A stretch of 64,000 nt of DNA, taken from Solirubrobacter pauli (GTDB lineage Bacteria > Actinomycetota > Thermoleophilia > Solirubrobacterales > Solirubrobacteraceae). The notes beneath the pieces were generated by a model. It worked only from the letters and a program-made list of their open reading frames with translations, searched no databases and was not told the origin of the DNA. This document shows, piece by piece, positions 34,839-43,766 of the stretch. Both the position numbers and the translations under genes were made by a program. Location: positions 915,426-979,425 of the forward strand of contig NZ_RBIL01000001.1 in assembly GCF_003633755.1 (NCBI RefSeq). Direction: 5' to 3'. The first letter of the stretch is position 1; every line of letters begins with the position of its first letter.

Positions 34839-35279
34839 TCAAGCCTCAAACGGACGCTCGAACAGCGTGCTGAGCACGATCTGCGTCTGCGTCCTGGTGA
34901 CACCCGGATGGTCCCGGATCCGCTCGAGCGTCTCCTCCAGATGGGCCGTGTCACGCGCCCGCACGTGCACGACGGCGCTCGCCTCACCGGCCACCGTGTA
35001 GGCCGCCTCGACCTCCGGATGGCGCTCCACGGCGTCCCGCACCTCGTTGGCCGGCATCCGCCCCTCGCAGTACAGCGAGACCAGCGCGTGCGTCGTCCAA
35101 CCGAAGCGGCCGGGGTCCACCCGGGCCGTGTAGCCGCGCACGACCCCCTCGGCCTCGAGCTTGTCCACGCGGCGCTTGACGGCCGGCGCCGACAGCGACA
35201 CCCGCATCCCGATGCTCTGGAAGGACCGCCGCGCGTCCTGCCGGAGGAGCGCAACGATCTGACGGTCGACTTCGTCCAT
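34839..35279 (-). CDS. Lrp/AsnC-family transcriptional regulator
   Basis: 146 residues from ATG at 35279. N-terminal helix-turn-helix MDEVDRQIVALLRQDARRSF then SIGMRVSLSAPAVKRRVDKLE, followed by a RAM-type effector domain (HALVSLYCEG, AAYTVAGEASAVVHV). Divergent from HPPD with 66 bases between starts; imperfect arms GGCGCA (35302-35307) and TGCGCC (35326-35331) are a possible site. AsnC proteins bind amino acids, so control of tyrosine catabolism by tyrosine or phenylalanine is a natural inference. Confidence 0.9.
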   Translation of the reverse strand: MDEVDRQIVALLRQDARRSFQSIGMRVSLSAPAVKRRVDKLEAEGVVRGYTARVDPGRFGWTTHALVSLYCEGRMPANEVRDAVERHPEVEAAYTVAGEASAVVHVRARDTAHLEETLERIRDHPGVTRTQTQIVLSTLFERPFEA

Positions 35280-35345: not shown

Positions 35346-36473
35346 ATGAAGCGCATGTCGACCCAGCCCATCGTCGCGCCCAGCAAGACGGAAGACTTCA
35401 TGCCGCTCCACGGCATCGACCACGTCGAGTTCTTTGTCGGCAACGCGCTCCAGGCCGCCGCGTTCTGGGTGAAGAACCTCGGCTTCAAGGAGGTCGCGTA
35501 CGCGGGGCTGGAGACCGGTGTGCGCGACCGCGCGTCGCACGTCCTCGAGCAGGGCCGGATCCGGATCGTGCTGACGGGTGCACTCGTGCCCGGGCACGAG
35601 ATCGGCGAGCACGTCGCCCGCCACGGCGACGGCGTGAAGGTGATCGCGCTCGGCGTCCCGGACGTCGACCACGCCTATCGCGAGGCCACCGCCCGTGGCG
35701 CGCGGGGCGTCGAGGAGCCGCACGACGTCTCCGATGACCACGGCACGCTGCGCCGCGCCTCGATCGCGACCTACGGCGACACGCTGCACACCTTCGTGGA
35801 CCGCAAGGGCTACAAGGGCGCGTTCATGCCCGGCTACGCGCCGCGCGACCTCGACACCGGCGACGCCGGGCTGCTGGCGATCGACCACATCGTCGGCAAC
35901 GTCGAGCTCGGCCACATGGACGAGTGGGTCAAGTACTACGAGGACGTCTTCGGCATGCGGGAGATGCTCCACTTCTCCGACGACGACATCTCGACCGAGT
36001 ACTCGGCGCTGATGTCGAAGGTCGTCACCAACGGCAACGGCCGCGTGAAGTTCCCGCTCAACGAGCCGGCCGAGGGCAAGCGCAAGTCGCAGATCGACGA
36101 GTACCTGGAGTACTACGGCGGTGCGGGCGCGCAGCACATCGCGGTCGCGACGCGGGACATCGTCGGCACGGTCGAGCAGCTCAAGGCGCGCGGGATCGAG
36201 TTCCTCAACACGCCCGACACCTACTACGACGACGCCCCGGACCGCGTGGGCGAGATCGCCGAGGACTTCGAGGACCTCAAGCGCCTCGGCATCCTCGTCG
36301 ACCGCGACGACGAGGGCTACCTGCTGCAGATCTTCACGAAGCCGATCGGCGACCGCCCGACCGTCTTCCTCGAGGTGATCGAGCGTCACGGCGCGCGCGG
36401 GTTCGGCGACGGCAACTTCAAGGCGCTGTTCGAGGCGATCGAGCGCGAGCAGGCGCTGCGGGGCAACCTGTAG
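35346..36473 (+). CDS. hppD: 4-Hydroxyphenylpyruvate dioxygenase
   Basis: 375 residues from ATG at 35346 (ATG at 35355 also in frame). Two vicinal-oxygen-chelate domains. The iron ligands are H181 (AIDHIVGNV), H264 (AQHIAVA) and E343 (FLEVIERHG); the spacings of 83 and 79 equal those of the Streptomyces enzyme. The ending GFGDGNFKALFEAIE is family-typical. It converts 4-hydroxyphenylpyruvate, O2 to homogentisate and CO2 in tyrosine degradation. First gene of an operon: three bases separate it from the mini-serpin gene. Confidence 0.95.
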   Translation: MKRMSTQPIVAPSKTEDFMPLHGIDHVEFFVGNALQAAAFWVKNLGFKEVAYAGLETGVRDRASHVLEQGRIRIVLTGALVPGHEIGEHVARHGDGVKVIALGVPDVDHAYREATARGARGVEEPHDVSDDHGTLRRASIATYGDTLHTFVDRKGYKGAFMPGYAPRDLDTGDAGLLAIDHIVGNVELGHMDEWVKYYEDVFGMREMLHFSDDDISTEYSALMSKVVTNGNGRVKFPLNEPAEGKRKSQIDEYLEYYGGAGAQHIAVATRDIVGTVEQLKARGIEFLNTPDTYYDDAPDRVGEIAEDFEDLKRLGILVDRDDEGYLLQIFTKPIGDRPTVFLEVIERHGARGFGDGNFKALFEAIEREQALRGNL

Positions 36474-36476
36474 GAC

Positions 36477-37343
36477 ATGCTCCTCGACCAGCTCGCCGGT
36501 GACGTCGTCTACTCGCCGTACGGGCTGCAGCGTGCGCTGAGCGTGGTGCGCGAGGGCGCGACGGGCGAGACCCGGCGCGCCCTGGAGGCGTTCACGATGC
36601 CACCCGAGGTGCCGGGCGTGCTGTCGGCCCAGGCGGCCTGGCTGCACGCCGACTACCGGCCGGGCCCGAAGCTCACGCTCGACACGGGCCCGCTGGAATT
36701 GGACGCGATCAACGCCTGGTCGAGCGAGAAGACGCACGGGATGGTGCCGCGGATCCTCGAGGAGTTGAGCGCCGACGAGATCGCGGTCATCACCGACGCC
36801 GAGTACCTGAAGGCCCGGTGGCGGCTGCCGTTCGAGGGCACGCGGCGCGCACCGTTCGAGGGCGCCGGCGAGGTCGACATGATGACCGTCGAGGGCCGCT
36901 TCGAGCACGCCGACGACGCGATCCGGCTGCCGTACGCTGAGCACGACCTGCGGTTCGCGGCGATGCTCGGCGAGTGGCACGACGTCGAGTGGCGGCGCGG
37001 CCAGGGCACCGTCGAGCTGCCGCGCTTCTCGACCACGAGCTCGCTGGAGCTCGACCGGCTGCTCGGCCTGTCGCTCGAAGCGGGCCACGACCTGGACGCG
37101 CTGATCGAGGGCCCCGGCCTGAAGGGCCTGAGCCGGATCATCCAGCGCGCCCGCGTGGACGTCGACGAGGAGGGCACGACCGCCGCCGCCACCACCGCGG
37201 TGACCATGCGTGCGGTGTCGATGCCGCTCGACCCGTTCCACATCGTCTTCGACCGGCCCTTCACCTGGGTCATCGAGCACGCGCCGACCGGCACGGCCCT
37301 GTTCGCCGGCCGCGTCGTCCACCCGACCTCGAGGAGAGACTGA
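36477..37343 (+). CDS. Mini-serpin (serine-protease-inhibitor fold)
   Basis: 288 residues, no signal peptide, so cytosolic. Serpin landmarks: DVVYSPYGLQRAL near residue 9 (strand 6B/helix B), INAWSSEKTHGMVPRIL at 78-94, ITDAEYLKARWRLPFEG at 105-121, the proximal hinge EEGTTAAATTAV at 231-242, and FDRPFTWVIEHAPTGTALFAGRVV at 258-281. Aligning the hinge (G233 = P15) puts the scissile pair at V247-S248. Normal serpins have 350-400 residues; helix A and part of the helix D region are missing or short. It starts three bases after HPPD and overlaps the homogentisate dioxygenase start (TGATG). Whether it inhibits a protease is unknown. Confidence 0.85.
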   Translation: MLLDQLAGDVVYSPYGLQRALSVVREGATGETRRALEAFTMPPEVPGVLSAQAAWLHADYRPGPKLTLDTGPLELDAINAWSSEKTHGMVPRILEELSADEIAVITDAEYLKARWRLPFEGTRRAPFEGAGEVDMMTVEGRFEHADDAIRLPYAEHDLRFAAMLGEWHDVEWRRGQGTVELPRFSTTSSLELDRLLGLSLEAGHDLDALIEGPGLKGLSRIIQRARVDVDEEGTTAAATTAVTMRAVSMPLDPFHIVFDRPFTWVIEHAPTGTALFAGRVVHPTSRRD

Positions 37344-38524
37344 TGCGCTACCACAGCCTCGGCCGGATCCCGGCCAAGCGCCACGTGCAGTTCCGCGACC
37401 CGGACTCGTCGGCGAACGGCAACGCGCCGCTGCTGGTCGAGGAGGTCATGGGCTTCGAGGGCTTCTCGGGCAACGAGTCGATCCTCTACCACCTGTTCTC
37501 GCCCTGCCGCGTGAAGGAGGTCGGCGCGTTCACGCCGATCGTGCTCGAGGAGTGGGTGCCGGAGACGCACGTGCACCGCCTCACGCACACGATGGAGATG
37601 GCGCCCTCCGGTGACGCCGTGCTCGGCCGCCGCGTGCTCCAGTACAACGGCGACGTCGAGATCGGGATCTGCGTGCCCGAGCGCGAGGCGGACTACTTCT
37701 ACCGCGACGGCGAGGGCGACGAGGTCATCTTCGTCCACGAGGGCAGCGGCGTCGTGGAGACGATCTTCGGGTCGCTGGAGTACCGCAAGCACGACTACGT
37801 GGTGCTCCCGCGCGGCACCACCTACCGCTTCCGCTTCGACGAGCCCCAGCGCTGGCTGACCTTCTACACGCCGGGCGAGATCGAGACGCCGAACCGCTAC
37901 CGCAACCGCTACGGCCAGCTGCTCGAGCACGCGCCCTTCTCGCAGCGTGACTTCCACCCGCCGGCGGAGCTCGTCACGCACCGCTCGCGGGACGAGCACC
38001 ACGTCAAGGTCCGCGTCCGCGGCGGCTACCAGGACTACGTGCTCGACTACCACCCGCTCGACGTGGTCGGCTGGGACGGCTACGTGTACCCGTACACGTT
38101 CAACATCCACGACTTCGAGCCCAAGGCCGGCCGCCTGCACCAGCCGCCGCCCGCCCACCAGACCTTCCAGGGCCCGAACTTCGTGATCTGCTCGTTCTGC
38201 CCGCGGATGCTCGACTGGGACCCGATGGCGATCGCGCTGCCGTACCACCACTCGAACGTCCAGAGCGAGGAGGTCATGTACTACGTCGACGGCGACTACG
38301 CCGCGCGCAAGGGCGTGGAGATCGGCTCGTTCACGCTGCACCCCAGCGGCCTGCCGCACGGCCCCCAGCCCGGGACGGTCGAGAAGACGCTGGGCATCAA
38401 GGAGACGTCCGAGCTGGCCGTCATGTGCGATACGTTCCGGCCCTTGAAGCTGACGACGCTCGCGCGCGACCTCGACGACCCCAGCTACGCGTACTCCTGG
38501 TACGAGGACCCCGTTGCCGGCTAG
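37343..38524 (+). CDS. hmgA: Homogentisate 1,2-dioxygenase, short type
   Basis: 393 residues from ATG at 37343 with GAGGAGAG just upstream. Cupin-fold; the iron ligands are H303, E309 and H339 (YHHSNVQSEE and LPHGP), with spacings 6 and 30 as in the human enzyme. Shorter than the about 440-residue classic form; the N-terminal lobe is reduced. It opens homogentisate to maleylacetoacetate. Same operon as HPPD; the isomerase and hydrolase that usually follow (hmgC/hmgB) are absent here. The next gene overlaps by 11 bases. Confidence 0.9.
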   Translation: MRYHSLGRIPAKRHVQFRDPDSSANGNAPLLVEEVMGFEGFSGNESILYHLFSPCRVKEVGAFTPIVLEEWVPETHVHRLTHTMEMAPSGDAVLGRRVLQYNGDVEIGICVPEREADYFYRDGEGDEVIFVHEGSGVVETIFGSLEYRKHDYVVLPRGTTYRFRFDEPQRWLTFYTPGEIETPNRYRNRYGQLLEHAPFSQRDFHPPAELVTHRSRDEHHVKVRVRGGYQDYVLDYHPLDVVGWDGYVYPYTFNIHDFEPKAGRLHQPPPAHQTFQGPNFVICSFCPRMLDWDPMAIALPYHHSNVQSEEVMYYVDGDYAARKGVEIGSFTLHPSGLPHGPQPGTVEKTLGIKETSELAVMCDTFRPLKLTTLARDLDDPSYAYSWYEDPVAG

Positions 38525-39599
38525 GAGCTTCCGCTGGCAGGACGGCGAGCGGCTGATCGTCTTCGGCGAAGGCGCGGCCGCGCACGCCGTCGAGACGCTC
38601 GGCGGTCCCGGCTACACGCTGCTGACGACCGAGCGGGCGAAGGAGGCCGCGCCCGGCGTCGTGACCGCCGCCGGCGAGGTCCACATCGTGCCCGCGGGTC
38701 ATGTCGACGACCTCGCCGCGTCGCTGCTCGACGTCGTCGGCGGCGACCGGATCGTCGCGCTGGGCGGCGGGCGCGTGGTCGACGTGGCCAAGGCGATCGT
38801 CGCCGCGCAGGCCGCGGGCGCGGGCGGAGACGCCGTGAGCGCCAGCGGCGCCTACCCGGGCACGCCCGGGGCGGGCCGGGCGGCCGCTGACCACCGGGCG
38901 TTCGCCGGGCCGCCGCGGGCGCTGGCCGTGCCGACCACGCTGTCGGGCGCGGAGATGACCCGGATCCACCGGCACGCCGACGGCGTCGCCGAGTCGACCC
39001 CGCGCGTGCGCCCGGCCGTCGTGATCATCGACCCCGCGCTCGCGGCCTCGCAGCCGGTCGAGGCGCTGGCGGCGAGCTCGCTGAACGCGCTCGGCCACGC
39101 GGTCGAGGCGCCGTGCGTCACCGGTGCCAACCCGGTCGCGACCCTCGCCGCGCACGAGGCCGCGCGCCTCCTCGCGGCGGGCTGGCAGGGCGCCGAGCCC
39201 GACCGCGAGACGCTCGCGCTCGGCTCGCTGCTCGCGGGGTACGCCCTGGACAACTCCGCGCTGGCGCTCCACCACGTGCTCGCGCAGACGCTCGTCCGCG
39301 TCGCCGGTCTCGCCCACGGCCCGGCGAACGCCGCGATGCTGCCAGTGACGATCGGCGCCCTCGCCGCCCGCACGCCGGAGGCGATCGAGGCGCTGAACGC
39401 CGCCGTCGGCGAGGACGTGGCCGAGGTCGCGCTGCGCATCCGCGCCCGCTCCGGCGCGGGCGGCCTGCGGGATCTCGGCGTGGACCCGGACGTCCTGCGC
39501 GGCTGCGCGGACGCCGCGGCCGCCCGTCCCCAGCTCAAGCTCACACCTCCGCCCGCCGACCGCGACGAGATCCTGTCGCTGTACGAACGCGCGCTCTAG
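38514..39599 (+). CDS. Maleylacetate-reductase-like iron-type alcohol dehydrogenase
   Basis: 361 residues from TTG at 38514. Fe-ADH fold with NAD motif ALGGGRVVDVAKAI. The helix SSLNALGHAVEAPC has Asn where metal-dependent Fe-ADHs have the ligand Asp; this substitution is seen in maleylacetate reductases, as is ALHHVLAQTL and LAHGPANAAMLP. The family reduces maleylacetate to 3-oxoadipate. In this operon the upstream product would be maleylacetoacetate, so the true substrate is open. Ends 11 bases before a region of repeats at 39611. Confidence 0.8.
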   Translation: MPARSFRWQDGERLIVFGEGAAAHAVETLGGPGYTLLTTERAKEAAPGVVTAAGEVHIVPAGHVDDLAASLLDVVGGDRIVALGGGRVVDVAKAIVAAQAAGAGGDAVSASGAYPGTPGAGRAAADHRAFAGPPRALAVPTTLSGAEMTRIHRHADGVAESTPRVRPAVVIIDPALAASQPVEALAASSLNALGHAVEAPCVTGANPVATLAAHEAARLLAAGWQGAEPDRETLALGSLLAGYALDNSALALHHVLAQTLVRVAGLAHGPANAAMLPVTIGALAARTPEAIEALNAAVGEDVAEVALRIRARSGAGGLRDLGVDPDVLRGCADAAAARPQLKLTPPPADRDEILSLYERAL

Positions 39600-40022: not shown

Positions 40023-43000
40023 CTAGCCGCGCGCGAAGGTCGCGGACGGGCTCCAGGTCGTGCCGTTCCAGACGCGCGACTTGCCGTCGTAGCTGACGAC
40101 GACGCAGTACGTCGGCGAGCCGCAGTCGATGGCCGCGGACTTCTGCGCGACGTCGGACGTCTTCGTCCAGGTCGCGCCGTTCCAGGTCCAGAGCGGCGCG
40201 TCGGTCGCACCGGCGCCGCCGGCGACGCAGATGTCACCCGCGACCGAGCACCCGACCGGGTCGATGTACAGCGTGGTGCCACCGCTGGTCACGTTGACCG
40301 GCGTGAACGCCGTGCCGTTGTACTGGCTCGTGCCGTAGCCCGAGTAGCCGGCGAAGCAGTTCGTGGTCGAGGTGCAGGCCAGCGAGTTGCCCGGGTGCGG
40401 CTGGTCGGCGAGGACGGTGACCGTCGTGCCGTCGAACCGCCCGGCCTTCGGGTTGCCGATCATCACGCAGCTGTTGACCGCGGGGCAGTTGATCCGCGAC
40501 CAGCCGCGGGTGCCGCTGCTGGCGTACGGCGCCGACCAGGCGGTTCCGTCCCACTTCCACAGGCGCGGGACGGTGTCGTCCTGGACGTTGTCGTACAGCG
40601 CGCCGGCGGCGACGCAGAACGTCTGGGAGGCGCACGAGATGTCCCACACCTCGTAGGCCGGGACGTCCGGGATCGCCGTCCACGCCGTGCCGTCCCACGT
40701 GGCGACCTTGCCGTTGTGGTTGCCGGTCATGCACCACGTCTCCGACACGCAGGTCACCGGGACGAAGTACATGGTCGTCGCCGGCAGGCCGGAGGCGACC
40801 GCGTTGCTCCACTCACCCGAGGCGCTGCGCGTGTACGAGTTGTTCTTGCTGTCGACCGCCATGCACCACGTCGTGGTCGGGCAGTCGAGGTCGCGCGCCG
40901 GCAGCGGCGCGCCGTAGACCTGCAGCGTGAGCTGCTTGGTCGCGACCGCGCTGTCGGCCGACACGACCTTGACCGTGAAGGTCGCGGTGCCGGTCGTCGT
41001 CGGCGTGCCGGTGATCTCGCCGGTGGAGGCGCCGAGCGTCAGGCCGGTCGGGAGCGTGCCGCTGTCGATGCTCCACGTGTACGGGCCCGTGCCGCCCAGC
41101 GTCGCCAGCGTGGTGCTGTACGCGGTGTTCTGGTCGGCGCCCGGGAGCGTCGCGGACGTGGAGATCGTCATGCCGGGCGGCTCGAGCTCCAGCGCGACGG
41201 TGCGCTCGGCGCTGACGTTCCGTGAATCTGTGACCTTCAGCTTGACGTTGAAGGTTCCGGTGACGGTCGGCGTGCCGGTGAGCTTGTTGCCCGCGACGGA
41301 CAGGCCGGTCGGCAGCGTCGACGGATCGGCCGACCACTGGTACGGCGCGCGGCCGCCGAACGCGGTCAGCGCCTGGTCGTAGGCCACGCCGTTCATGCCC
41401 TGCGGCAACGAGCCGGTCGTCACCGTGAGCGCGTCGAGGTCGATGATCGTCAGCGCGACGTCGGCGGTCTTGGTACGACCGTCGGCGTCCTTGACCGTCA
41501 CCGCGAGCGGCGCCGTCGACGGGCCGGTCGGCGTGCCGGAGACCACGCCCGCGGCGCTGACCGCCAGGCCGGCCGGGACGTTGGTGGCGCTCCACGTGTA
41601 GGTGCCGCGGCCGCCGGACGCCGACAGCGTCTGCGAGTAGGCGACGTCGGCCTTGCCCTGCGGCAGGGTCGTGGTGCCGATCGCGAGCGGCGCCGGGTCG
41701 ACCGCGACGGTGAACGCGCGCGTCGCCTCGTTGCCGTCGAGCCCGCGGACCTTCACGGTGAAGGTCGCGGCGCCGATCGCCGTCGGCGTGCCGGTGATCG
41801 TGTCCCCCGCGAGCCGCAGGCCGGCCGGCAGGGCGCCGCCGCTGACGGTCCAGGTGTACGGCGTCACGGCGCCGGCCGCCTCGAGCTTGGCCGAGTACGG
41901 CGTGCCGGTGACCGCGCCGCGGAGCGCCGTCGTGGCGATCACCGCGGGCGGCGTCTTGGTGAGGATGTCGTACGAGCGCAGGGCCTTCTGGCCGAGCGAG
42001 TCCTTGGCGGCGATCTCGACGCTGCGCGTGCCGTAGCCGGTCGCGGTGCCGGTGATGCGGCCGTCCGACTCCAGCTTGAGGCCGTCCGGCAGGCGGCCGC
42101 TGTTGACCGCGTAGGTCAGCGGCGCGCGCGAGGACGTGGCCGCGACCTTGGCGCTGTAGGCCTTGCCGCGCTCGGCGTCCGGAAGCGTCTTGGTCGTGAA
42201 CGTCGGGACCGGCGGCTTGTCGGCCTTCGCGATCGTCCAGTCCTCGGACCAGATGTCGCGGATGCCCTTGTCGAAGTTGAACTTCCAGACCTTGAAGCGC
42301 AGACCACCACCGGCCTGCAGGCCGCCGGAGAGGCGCCACCACGGATCCTTGGCCGTGTCGGCCTTGAGCTGCATGAAGAGGTCGGCGGTCAGGTACGGGC
42401 CGGCGACGTCGTAGAAGTCGAACATCAGCTTCGGGCCGATCGCGGCCTTGATGTTCAGCGTGCCCGACGGGGTCGGCTTGTAGGTCTTGAAGGAGGCCTT
42501 GGCGCTGCCGTACGGACCGAACTTCGAGCCGTCCCACTGGACGCCGAACTCGGTGTCCAGCGACTGCTCGACCCACGTCGAGATGCGCGCGCCGACGGAC
42601 GCCTCGCCCGTGACCTGGAAGTTGAGCTTGGGCACGATCACGACCGGCACGGGGCCGACGGAGAACGTCCACGGCGAGAAGCGGTAGTCCTTCGGGAGCA
42701 GGTCGAGCTCGAGCTCGCACTTGGCCTCACCCTCGATGCCGACCTCGATGCGCGCGTCCTGATGGAGCTTGACGCCGACGAAGGCCTTGATCGTGAGCGG
42801 CGCCCACACGCCGCCCCACGCGATGCCGACGTTCGTGCCGGCGTTGAAGTTGACGTCGCCGTCGATCGTGGCGCGCGCGCCGGTCGAGCACGAGTAGGGC
42901 CGCTCGAAGCCCTTGTTCTCGGACTTGGCGGCGAACGCCTTCGGCTTGTCCTGCAGCGAGAAGCCCGGCTGGATGCGCTTGAGGCCGGCGCCGGGGTTGC

Positions 43001-43766
43001 CCGCGGCGATCGCGTCCTCGAAGTCCTCCTTGGACATCTCGAGCTTCGGCTCGGCCTCGATCTCGGCCTGCGGGCCGATCGCGGTGAGCGGCGCGGGGCC
43101 GCCGACGGCGATCGTCTTGTCGCCCTCACGGCGGACCGCCGCGACCTCGACGAGCATGCCGCCCGGGGTCTGCGGGCCGACGCCGGCCGCCAGGACCGTG
43201 CCCGGCTGGACGAGCGCCTGCGGGTCCTCGACCACGACCTCGCGGACGCCGTTCGGGTCACCCTGGACCGTCTGGATGGCGCTCGGCTCGGCGACGCGGG
43301 TCTTGCTCTCGACGTGCTGCATGAAGCGCACGCCGACCCAGCCGGCGACGCCCTTGCGCAGCTTCGCGCGGGTCTGGTGGTACGTCGCGAACGTCGTGAC
43401 GTCCTGGCCCGGGATCGAGTCGGCGACGATCGTGTAAGTGCCGGGACGGACCTTGCGGAACGTCGTGGACTTCGAGATCACGCGCTTGAACTTCTTGGGC
43501 CCGGTGACCGTGACGCGCGGGGTGCTGCCCTTCGGGGCGAACTTCACCGAGACGCGCAGCGACGTCTTCTTGCGCTTGGTGGTGGCGACCTTCGCCTTCT
43601 TGCCCTTGGCCTTGTCCCACGACGAGCGTTTGAGCACGATCGAGCGGGTTTGACCTTGATCGCTGCAGGTTGCGGGTGCGCAGATCGGCGCGGCCGCTGA
43701 AGCGGCGGCGGGCAGCGCGAGGCCGAGCAAGCTGGCGACGACGAGGACGGGACGGAACTTCGGCAA
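40023..43766 (-). CDS. Large secreted modular protein: Ig-like repeats plus seven Cys-pair repeats
   Basis: 1247 residues, signal peptide to about residue 25. Residues about 26-290 are Lys-rich and beta-like; about 290-510 form a large beta domain rich in aromatic residues (SPWTFSVGPVPVVIV, VWKFNFDKGIRDIW). Then come five He_PIG-type Ig repeats (each about 85 residues, with patterns like LPAGLRLAGDTITGTPT and LPTGLSVAGNKLTGTPT). The last about 300 residues hold seven repeats, each starting with a Cys pair (CPTTTWC, CVSETWC, CASQTFC, CPAVNSC, CTSTTNC, CSVAGDIC, CGSPTYC) and having WNGTTW-like ends, as in a seven-bladed propeller. Likely surface or secreted adhesion protein. Confidence 0.85.
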   Translation of the reverse strand: MPKFRPVLVVASLLGLALPAAASAAAPICAPATCSDQGQTRSIVLKRSSWDKAKGKKAKVATTKRKKTSLRVSVKFAPKGSTPRVTVTGPKKFKRVISKSTTFRKVRPGTYTIVADSIPGQDVTTFATYHQTRAKLRKGVAGWVGVRFMQHVESKTRVAEPSAIQTVQGDPNGVREVVVEDPQALVQPGTVLAAGVGPQTPGGMLVEVAAVRREGDKTIAVGGPAPLTAIGPQAEIEAEPKLEMSKEDFEDAIAAGNPGAGLKRIQPGFSLQDKPKAFAAKSENKGFERPYSCSTGARATIDGDVNFNAGTNVGIAWGGVWAPLTIKAFVGVKLHQDARIEVGIEGEAKCELELDLLPKDYRFSPWTFSVGPVPVVIVPKLNFQVTGEASVGARISTWVEQSLDTEFGVQWDGSKFGPYGSAKASFKTYKPTPSGTLNIKAAIGPKLMFDFYDVAGPYLTADLFMQLKADTAKDPWWRLSGGLQAGGGLRFKVWKFNFDKGIRDIWSEDWTIAKADKPPVPTFTTKTLPDAERGKAYSAKVAATSSRAPLTYAVNSGRLPDGLKLESDGRITGTATGYGTRSVEIAAKDSLGQKALRSYDILTKTPPAVIATTALRGAVTGTPYSAKLEAAGAVTPYTWTVSGGALPAGLRLAGDTITGTPTAIGAATFTVKVRGLDGNEATRAFTVAVDPAPLAIGTTTLPQGKADVAYSQTLSASGGRGTYTWSATNVPAGLAVSAAGVVSGTPTGPSTAPLAVTVKDADGRTKTADVALTIIDLDALTVTTGSLPQGMNGVAYDQALTAFGGRAPYQWSADPSTLPTGLSVAGNKLTGTPTVTGTFNVKLKVTDSRNVSAERTVALELEPPGMTISTSATLPGADQNTAYSTTLATLGGTGPYTWSIDSGTLPTGLTLGASTGEITGTPTTTGTATFTVKVVSADSAVATKQLTLQVYGAPLPARDLDCPTTTWCMAVDSKNNSYTRSASGEWSNAVASGLPATTMYFVPVTCVSETWCMTGNHNGKVATWDGTAWTAIPDVPAYEVWDISCASQTFCVAAGALYDNVQDDTVPRLWKWDGTAWSAPYASSGTRGWSRINCPAVNSCVMIGNPKAGRFDGTTVTVLADQPHPGNSLACTSTTNCFAGYSGYGTSQYNGTAFTPVNVTSGGTTLYIDPVGCSVAGDICVAGGAGATDAPLWTWNGATWTKTSDVAQKSAAIDCGSPTYCVVVSYDGKSRVWNGTTWSPSATFARG

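Follow-up and report, generated by a model that had tools for sequence, protein, structure and literature searches.

Typical serpins comprise 330-500 residues with eight to nine helices (PMC10090351, text available in part), and an inhibitory consensus of approximately ExGTEAAAA is given for positions P17-P9 in the accessible portions of PMC8233489 and PMC10090351. The functions of prokaryotic serpins are called relatively enigmatic in the available text of PMC8233489, a phylogenetic study of the superfamily, where cytoplasmic housekeeping is hypothesised for some of them. Among reduced forms, CrmA of cowpox virus has been called "a minimal serpin" (PMC7863939, available in part), and Spi1C, a metagenomic serpin of 214 aa related to partial serpins, was reported to inhibit trypsin and chymotrypsin (PMC3225930, available in part). 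The serpin of Bifidobacterium longum is encoded in a small operon; it is flanked by a LacI regulator and under carbohydrate control, and it has been suggested to inhibit intestinal proteases (PMC8012564, available in part). The preliminary description of the locus analyzed here knew of no operon that combines a serpin with tyrosine degradation; in agreement with this, none of the titles and abstract openings listed from the open-access literature described an operon of this kind or linked a serpin to homogentisate, a 4-hydroxyphenylpyruvate dioxygenase (HPPD) operon, bacterial tyrosine catabolism or Solirubrobacter.

The window (i.e., the whole stretch of DNA analyzed, 64,000 nucleotides of Solirubrobacter pauli) contains a gene for a minimal serpin of 288 aa with an ATG start (36477..37343, + strand), which lies between the genes for HPPD and homogentisate 1,2-dioxygenase (HGD), the pair that marks tyrosine degradation, all on one strand. 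This HPPD-serpin-HGD order was found in all seven Solirubrobacter genomes, each with a single serpin locus. The serpin matches Pfam PF00079 with 128.1 bits (E 6.5e-37; cut-off 27), a cut-off that the serpins of all seven genomes pass; 177 distinct PDB sequences match it at E <= 0.001, the best 60 of these 177 all being serpins, and serpins were likewise matched in the best 60 rows when the profile of a 22-row alignment was compared to the PDB. A profile of six mini-serpins returned nothing from the PDB at E 1e-30, a threshold that proved too strict, and NCBIfam assigned no family to the serpin. As the reading frame is unbroken in the window and in the six other genomes of the genus, it is not a chance open reading frame. 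Along with the AlphaFold2 (AF2) serpin fold reported below, the Pfam and PDB matches bear out the earlier identification of a 288-residue serpin; homology and predicted fold identify the family, and the protein departs from typical serpins in size and helix count. The protein was also said to have no signal peptide, and no signal-like stretch was detected in residues 1-60, where the maximum 19-residue hydropathy is 0.72 for the window serpin and ranges from 0.49 to 0.83 across the six distinct mini-serpins (the window one included).

On profile evidence, the identity of HPPD (35346..36473, + strand) is secure (NCBIfam TIGR01263, 445 bits; cut-off 277). The HPPD gene is divergent from a gene for an Lrp/AsnC-type regulator (34839..35279, - strand; Pfam AsnC_trans_reg, 71 bits, and HTH_AsnC, 53 bits, with matches reported from 35276, i.e., one codon short), their starts being separated by 66 bp, and the regulator adjoins HPPD in the window as well as in the six other Solirubrobacter genomes. 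HGD (37343..38524, + strand) scores above the Pfam cut-offs for HgmA_N and HgmA_C, and its PDB matches are three sequences, every one a homogentisate 1,2-dioxygenase; against NCBIfam hmgA it reaches 59.8 bits, far below the cut-off of 510.75. Judged from these matches, the protein is a divergent member of the homogentisate 1,2-dioxygenase family (a divergent HgmA), and this divergent HGD may form a subfamily of its own that deserves a separate model. Far under the hmgA cut-off as it is, HGD yet has HPPD as its neighbour in 22 of 23 loci of other genera. The start of an iron-containing alcohol dehydrogenase-type gene (38514..39599, + strand; Pfam ADH_Fe_C, 73.7 bits) overlaps the HGD end; a gene of this type follows HGD in six of the seven genomes (in G001 cut by the contig end) and was not seen after HGD in G002. 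A promoter and terminator scan was not informative: nothing promoter-like was detected, and terminator-like sites numbered two against 1.0 expected. Just beyond the operon, a 1247-aa open reading frame (40023-43766, - strand) carries repeated "GTPT"-containing motifs that are Ig-like in appearance; no NCBIfam family matched it at E <= 0.001.

The serpin gene was described as starting three bases after HPPD and overlapping the start of HGD, and both junctions were confirmed: the HPPD stop codon TAG (36471-36473) is followed by GAC and the serpin ATG (36477), while the serpin stop codon TGA (37341-37343) shares a base with the HGD ATG (37343) in the sequence TGATG. The two dioxygenase neighbours support the proposed membership of the serpin in a tyrosine operon. 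Moreover, a Shine-Dalgarno-like AGGAG for HGD (37332..37336, + strand) is located inside the final codons of the serpin gene, 6 nt ahead of the HGD start codon. Since AGGAG, like TGATG, was found in seven of seven Solirubrobacter genomes, the serpin gene carries the likely HGD ribosome-binding site. In five of the seven genomes, the HPPD stop and the start of the serpin share a reading frame, as might be seen if an HPPD-serpin fusion had been split by a false stop or if the serpin were a pseudogene. However, TAG is present in all seven genomes, the two frames differ in G004 and G002, and the serpin frames are intact, so that we give an annotation artefact a negligible chance; a fusion or split gene was ruled out by the conserved HPPD stop and by the two genomes with differing frames.

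To place the gene order among relatives, 232 genomes of the order were compared. HGD matches at E <= 1e-40 were obtained in 36 of them, i.e., 7 Solirubrobacter genomes (named close relatives being Solirubrobacter phytolaccae, taibaiensis, deserti and sp. CPCC 204708) and 29 others. One strain number, CPCC 204708, is shared by S. deserti and Solirubrobacter sp., and the serpins of the two corresponding genomes, G001 and G006, are identical; the seven genomes therefore represent six independent strains. Among the 23 HGD loci examined from the 29 genomes of other genera, 22 have HPPD directly before HGD without a serpin, and one (L077) shows no HPPD within the available flank. The distance from HPPD stop to HGD start in the 22 serpin-less loci ranges from -4 to +58 bases, and eight of them have a one-base stop/start overlap, the same as that between serpin and HGD in Solirubrobacter. 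The serpin-less arrangement in 22 of 23 loci indicates that the two-gene unit is older and that the serpin was inserted later; by gene order, the serpin joined this pre-existing unit on the stem lineage of Solirubrobacter and was then retained. The comparison of gene order in relatives, which the preliminary description had put forward as a check, thus had two outcomes, the order being kept across Solirubrobacter and not found in other genera of the order. A stray gene was ruled out, as the locus is present in seven of seven genomes of the genus.

Pfam serpin matches were found in 15 of the 232 genomes, i.e., 7 Solirubrobacter and 8 of other genera, and the serpins of the latter have frames of 360-580 aa (one begins at a contig edge and one is frame-broken near its end). 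The flanks available for 63 serpin loci from outside Solirubrobacter (60 distinct places), which for 41 loci extend only about 1.5 kb, contain no HPPD, HGD, regulator or dehydrogenase. Several serpins per genome were also observed: G240, a genome of the same class, has serpin matches on three contigs (C160, C124 and C21), G762 has on C138 (L111) a broken second copy beside an intact one, and two loci (L023 and L028) contain a second serpin frame.

The mini-serpin profile matched 30 of 399 genomes of the class and 56 of 396 genomes of the phylum; the two samples have genomes in common with one another and with the order sample, and results from them do not imply absence more widely. Matches outside Solirubrobacter scored at most 115.6 bits, as compared to 565-575 bits for the four Solirubrobacter genomes sampled. 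Frames of less than 380 aa outside the genus accounted for 14 rows from 12 genomes, consisting of full-length serpins split into two or more frames (five genomes, including the second copy in G762), pieces at contig edges (two genomes), C-terminal fragments of 60-134 aa (four genomes) and one gapped, frame-broken serpin. None of these 12 genomes contains a short unbroken frame that spans the N-terminal part as well as the hinge, and no comparable intact short serpin was found outside Solirubrobacter in the order, class and phylum samples; a wider distribution of the mini form was thus not borne out by the class and phylum profile searches. In a quick maximum likelihood tree of 65 rows (leaving out three duplicates, one partial row, the extra frames of three loci and the G006 serpin, which equals that of G001), the mini-serpins formed one clade (100) on a stem of 1.9, with two Pullichristensenella (Bacillota) rows as neighbours (91, unstarred). 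Because of this long stem branch, the tree does not settle the origin of the mini-serpins.

Among the HPPD, serpin and HGD genes, that of the serpin evolves fastest, with NG86 dN/dS values for the window against the six others of 0.29-0.61, as compared to 0.09-0.31 for HPPD and 0.12-0.23 for HGD. In tblastn identity to the window proteins across the genus genomes, the serpin ranges over 51-82%, HPPD over 82-96% and HGD over 90-95%. The serpin of G005 is without about 10 residues at s4C/s3C, and that of G002 (L039, 8628-9647; 339 aa) has a low-complexity proline- and alanine-rich linker in place of helices G and H; going by these sequence losses, shrinkage of the serpin is still going on in the genus. 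The G002 serpin is the deepest-branching mini-serpin, and its linker is perhaps a remnant of stepwise loss. Rapid evolution and lineage-specific losses, along with the AGGAG near the gene's end and the TGATG junction in all seven genomes, would be expected if the serpin gene were a passenger, retained mainly for the HGD ribosome-binding site and the translational coupling of HGD while the protein erodes. We consider this improbable, as no stop or frameshift occurs in the window or the six other genomes, dN/dS is below 1 in all seven pairs computed, and relatives join HPPD straight to HGD, at the distances given above, with no serpin needed.

Structure prediction against known serpins, another check named in the preliminary description, came out in favour of the family assignment. 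AlphaFold2, run on the 22-row alignment, predicted a serpin fold (mean pLDDT 89.4, pTM 0.79), and the best 50 rows of both Foldseek and VIA-align were all serpins. The best VIA match by Z was 1mtp (Z 25.6, rmsd 2.0 over 243 residues), followed by miropin; CrmA (1f0c) aligned with a Z of 24.6 and an rmsd of 2.3 over 240 residues, and it had the top target-normalised TM (0.71) among the best 50 Foldseek rows. As a control, the full-length relative L018 was folded from the same alignment rows, which gave nine helices at a pLDDT of 93.5, and the elements of the mini-serpin, named after the standard serpin scheme, were mapped to this control through the alignment. The predicted model contains the sheet-A core, sheets B and C and helix F; in total, it keeps strands s2A, s3A, s5A, s6A, s4C, s3C, s1B, s2B, s2C, s4B and s5B, helices B and F, and most of helix I. 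On the other hand, zero residues align to control helices D and G, no helix is present at the E and H positions, helix A is a stub, helix C is about half its length, and strand s1A, of which two of six residues remain, was counted as missing. Most of the lost elements are outer helices. With 288 aa, and with helices D, E, G and H absent, A a stub and C halved as compared to nine helices in the control, the protein is thus outside the typical serpin size and helix count. The earlier account, which had helix A and part of helix D missing and the hinge kept, was right about a loss of scaffold with a retained hinge and too modest about its extent, as the deletions are larger than claimed. The loop forms a strand after the hinge in the models of both the mini-serpin and L018, and cleaved, loop-inserted chains match best; since the full-length control is identical in this respect, the AF2 loop state says nothing special about the mini-serpin and was discarded as evidence.

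The structural matches listed include thyroxine- and corticosteroid-binding globulins; as the operon deals with aromatic acids, the mini-serpin could be envisaged as a globulin-like carrier that binds an aromatic metabolite derived from tyrosine. The ligand pocket of these globulins uses helices A and H, however, and in the mini-serpin helix A is a stub and helix H is gone. As the globulins also match no better than other serpins, we regard a carrier function as very improbable.

The proximal hinge and unprimed loop (residues 231-247, P17-P1; 37167..37217, + strand) were placed by alignments, in which the hinge is alignable with full-length relatives, and by a model strand at residues 233-247. 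Positions P17-P9 read EEGTTAAAT (231-239), with T or R across the mini-serpins instead of the consensus E at P13, and P15 to P1 comprises 15 residues, a normal loop length. The hinge EEGTTAAATTAV at 231-242 was confirmed as previously described, as was the predicted scissile bond V247-S248 (37217/37218, + strand), which we take, by standard serpin counting, to be P1-P1'. Mean pairwise identity among the six distinct mini-serpins is 0.67 overall, 0.79 for P17-P9, 0.80 for P8-P1 and 0.24 for P1'-P6'; in conservation, P1'-P6' ranks lowest among 283 six-residue windows, and only one drop elsewhere in the protein is larger than that past residue 247. R245 (P3) and V247 (P1) are invariant across the mini-serpins. 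The hinge itself is unexceptional: 57 of 280 nine-residue windows equal or exceed P17-P9 in conservation (for P8-P1, 58 of 281 eight-residue windows do so), and of all mini-serpins that of G002 has the hinge that diverges most. Overall, this pattern of sequence conservation fits an insertion strand and a fixed cut site, with the exposed side left free. A Val at P1 suggests elastase- or HtrA-like specificity.

The organism's own genome (7.1 Mb) contains 20 S8 (subtilisin-type) and 10 Trypsin_2 matches. For 24 of these 30 frames, the upstream 19-residue hydropathy is at least 1.6, i.e., signal- or membrane-like, and among the six below this value (L137, L140, L145, L147, L152 and L155), L137, L140 and L147 are signal-bearing by eye. 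No obvious cytosolic trypsin- or subtilisin-type target was thus found in this crude scan, which covered those two families with true starts not fixed. The lack of an evident cytosolic protease target, the large scaffold loss and the fixed place between HPPD and HGD in seven of seven genomes favor a non-inhibitory serpin, the reduced body of which would bind or stabilise HPPD or HGD as a chaperone or assembly factor, the loop being merely a structural strand. Conversely, the small-residue hinge is kept and the conservation edge is located exactly at P1-P1', and in 22 of 23 HGD loci examined from other genera of the order, HPPD and HGD manage without a serpin; we therefore think such a partner of the dioxygenases rather unlikely.

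Our own preference is for a cytosolic, loop-inserting minimal serpin that is co-translated with tyrosine catabolism and works as a suicide trap, a reading we hold with evenly balanced belief and disbelief. It is preferred because the parts for loop insertion are kept (hinge, s2A/s3A/s5A/s6A, helix F and most of sheets B and C), whereas the loss of four helices and s1A could abolish the metastable state required for trapping. Starting from the observed sequence, gene order, conservation and predicted fold, we propose that a serpin gene, presumably of an exported ancestor, entered the ancestral HPPD-HGD pair in the Solirubrobacter ancestor, and that the inserted serpin was then stripped of its export signal and of a large part of its helices. 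The serpin would now be cytosolic and apparently co-translated with both dioxygenases, its putative expression lying behind the divergent Lrp/AsnC-type regulator. The presumed target, a serine or cysteine protease inside the cell that tolerates Val at P1, would cut V247-S248, after which the loop (233-247) would insert as strand 4A and the protease would be trapped and so inhibited. As a possible physiological role, coupling to tyrosine breakdown could restrain proteolysis or, in line with the guarding of the dioxygenases suggested in the preliminary description, protect HPPD and HGD, while amino acids are burned. A fuller version, in which loop-inserting trapping proceeds without D, E, G, H and s1A, in the cytosol, on one conserved target accepting Val at P1 and co-translationally wired to amino acid catabolism so as to coordinate tyrosine breakdown with proteolysis, is offered tentatively and seems to us doubtful in its entirety. 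In our judgement, the suicide trap ranks above a non-inhibitory dioxygenase partner, and the latter above a translational-coupling passenger.

The role of serpins inside bacteria is an open question that this operon could help answer, as throughout a genus a serpin is fixed here in a single metabolic operon, the history of its insertion can be read, and serpin-free relatives provide natural controls. If the trap works, the reduced body would show how much of the scaffold loop insertion can spare. The mini-serpin has the serpin fold, hinge, loop strand and sheets A, B and C in common with full-length prokaryotic serpins, i.e., 1mtp from a thermophilic prokaryote, miropin (5nct/5ncu) and chloropin (PMC10090351, text available in part). 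Most of the 22 relatives listed start with a signal- or lipoprotein-like segment (as judged by eye), whereas none was seen in the mini-serpin; the frames examined in relatives are at least 360 aa long (contig-edge and broken pieces aside), as compared to 288 aa, without helices D, E, G and H, in the mini-serpin. The B. longum serpin belongs to a small operon, the output of which follows nutrient state; the Solirubrobacter serpin is likewise part of an operon, in which its partners are tyrosine dioxygenases, and no signal sequence was seen in it. Spi1C resembles the mini-serpin as a short bacterial serpin, and with Spi1C at 214 aa the 288-aa protein cannot be called the shortest reported. CrmA, which lacks helix D, is similar to the mini-serpin in combining a reduced scaffold with retained loop machinery. 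CrmA, however, is a viral caspase inhibitor, while the Solirubrobacter protein is bacterial, carries Val at P1 and, as compared to the full-length control, has lost helices D, E, G and H together with strand s1A.
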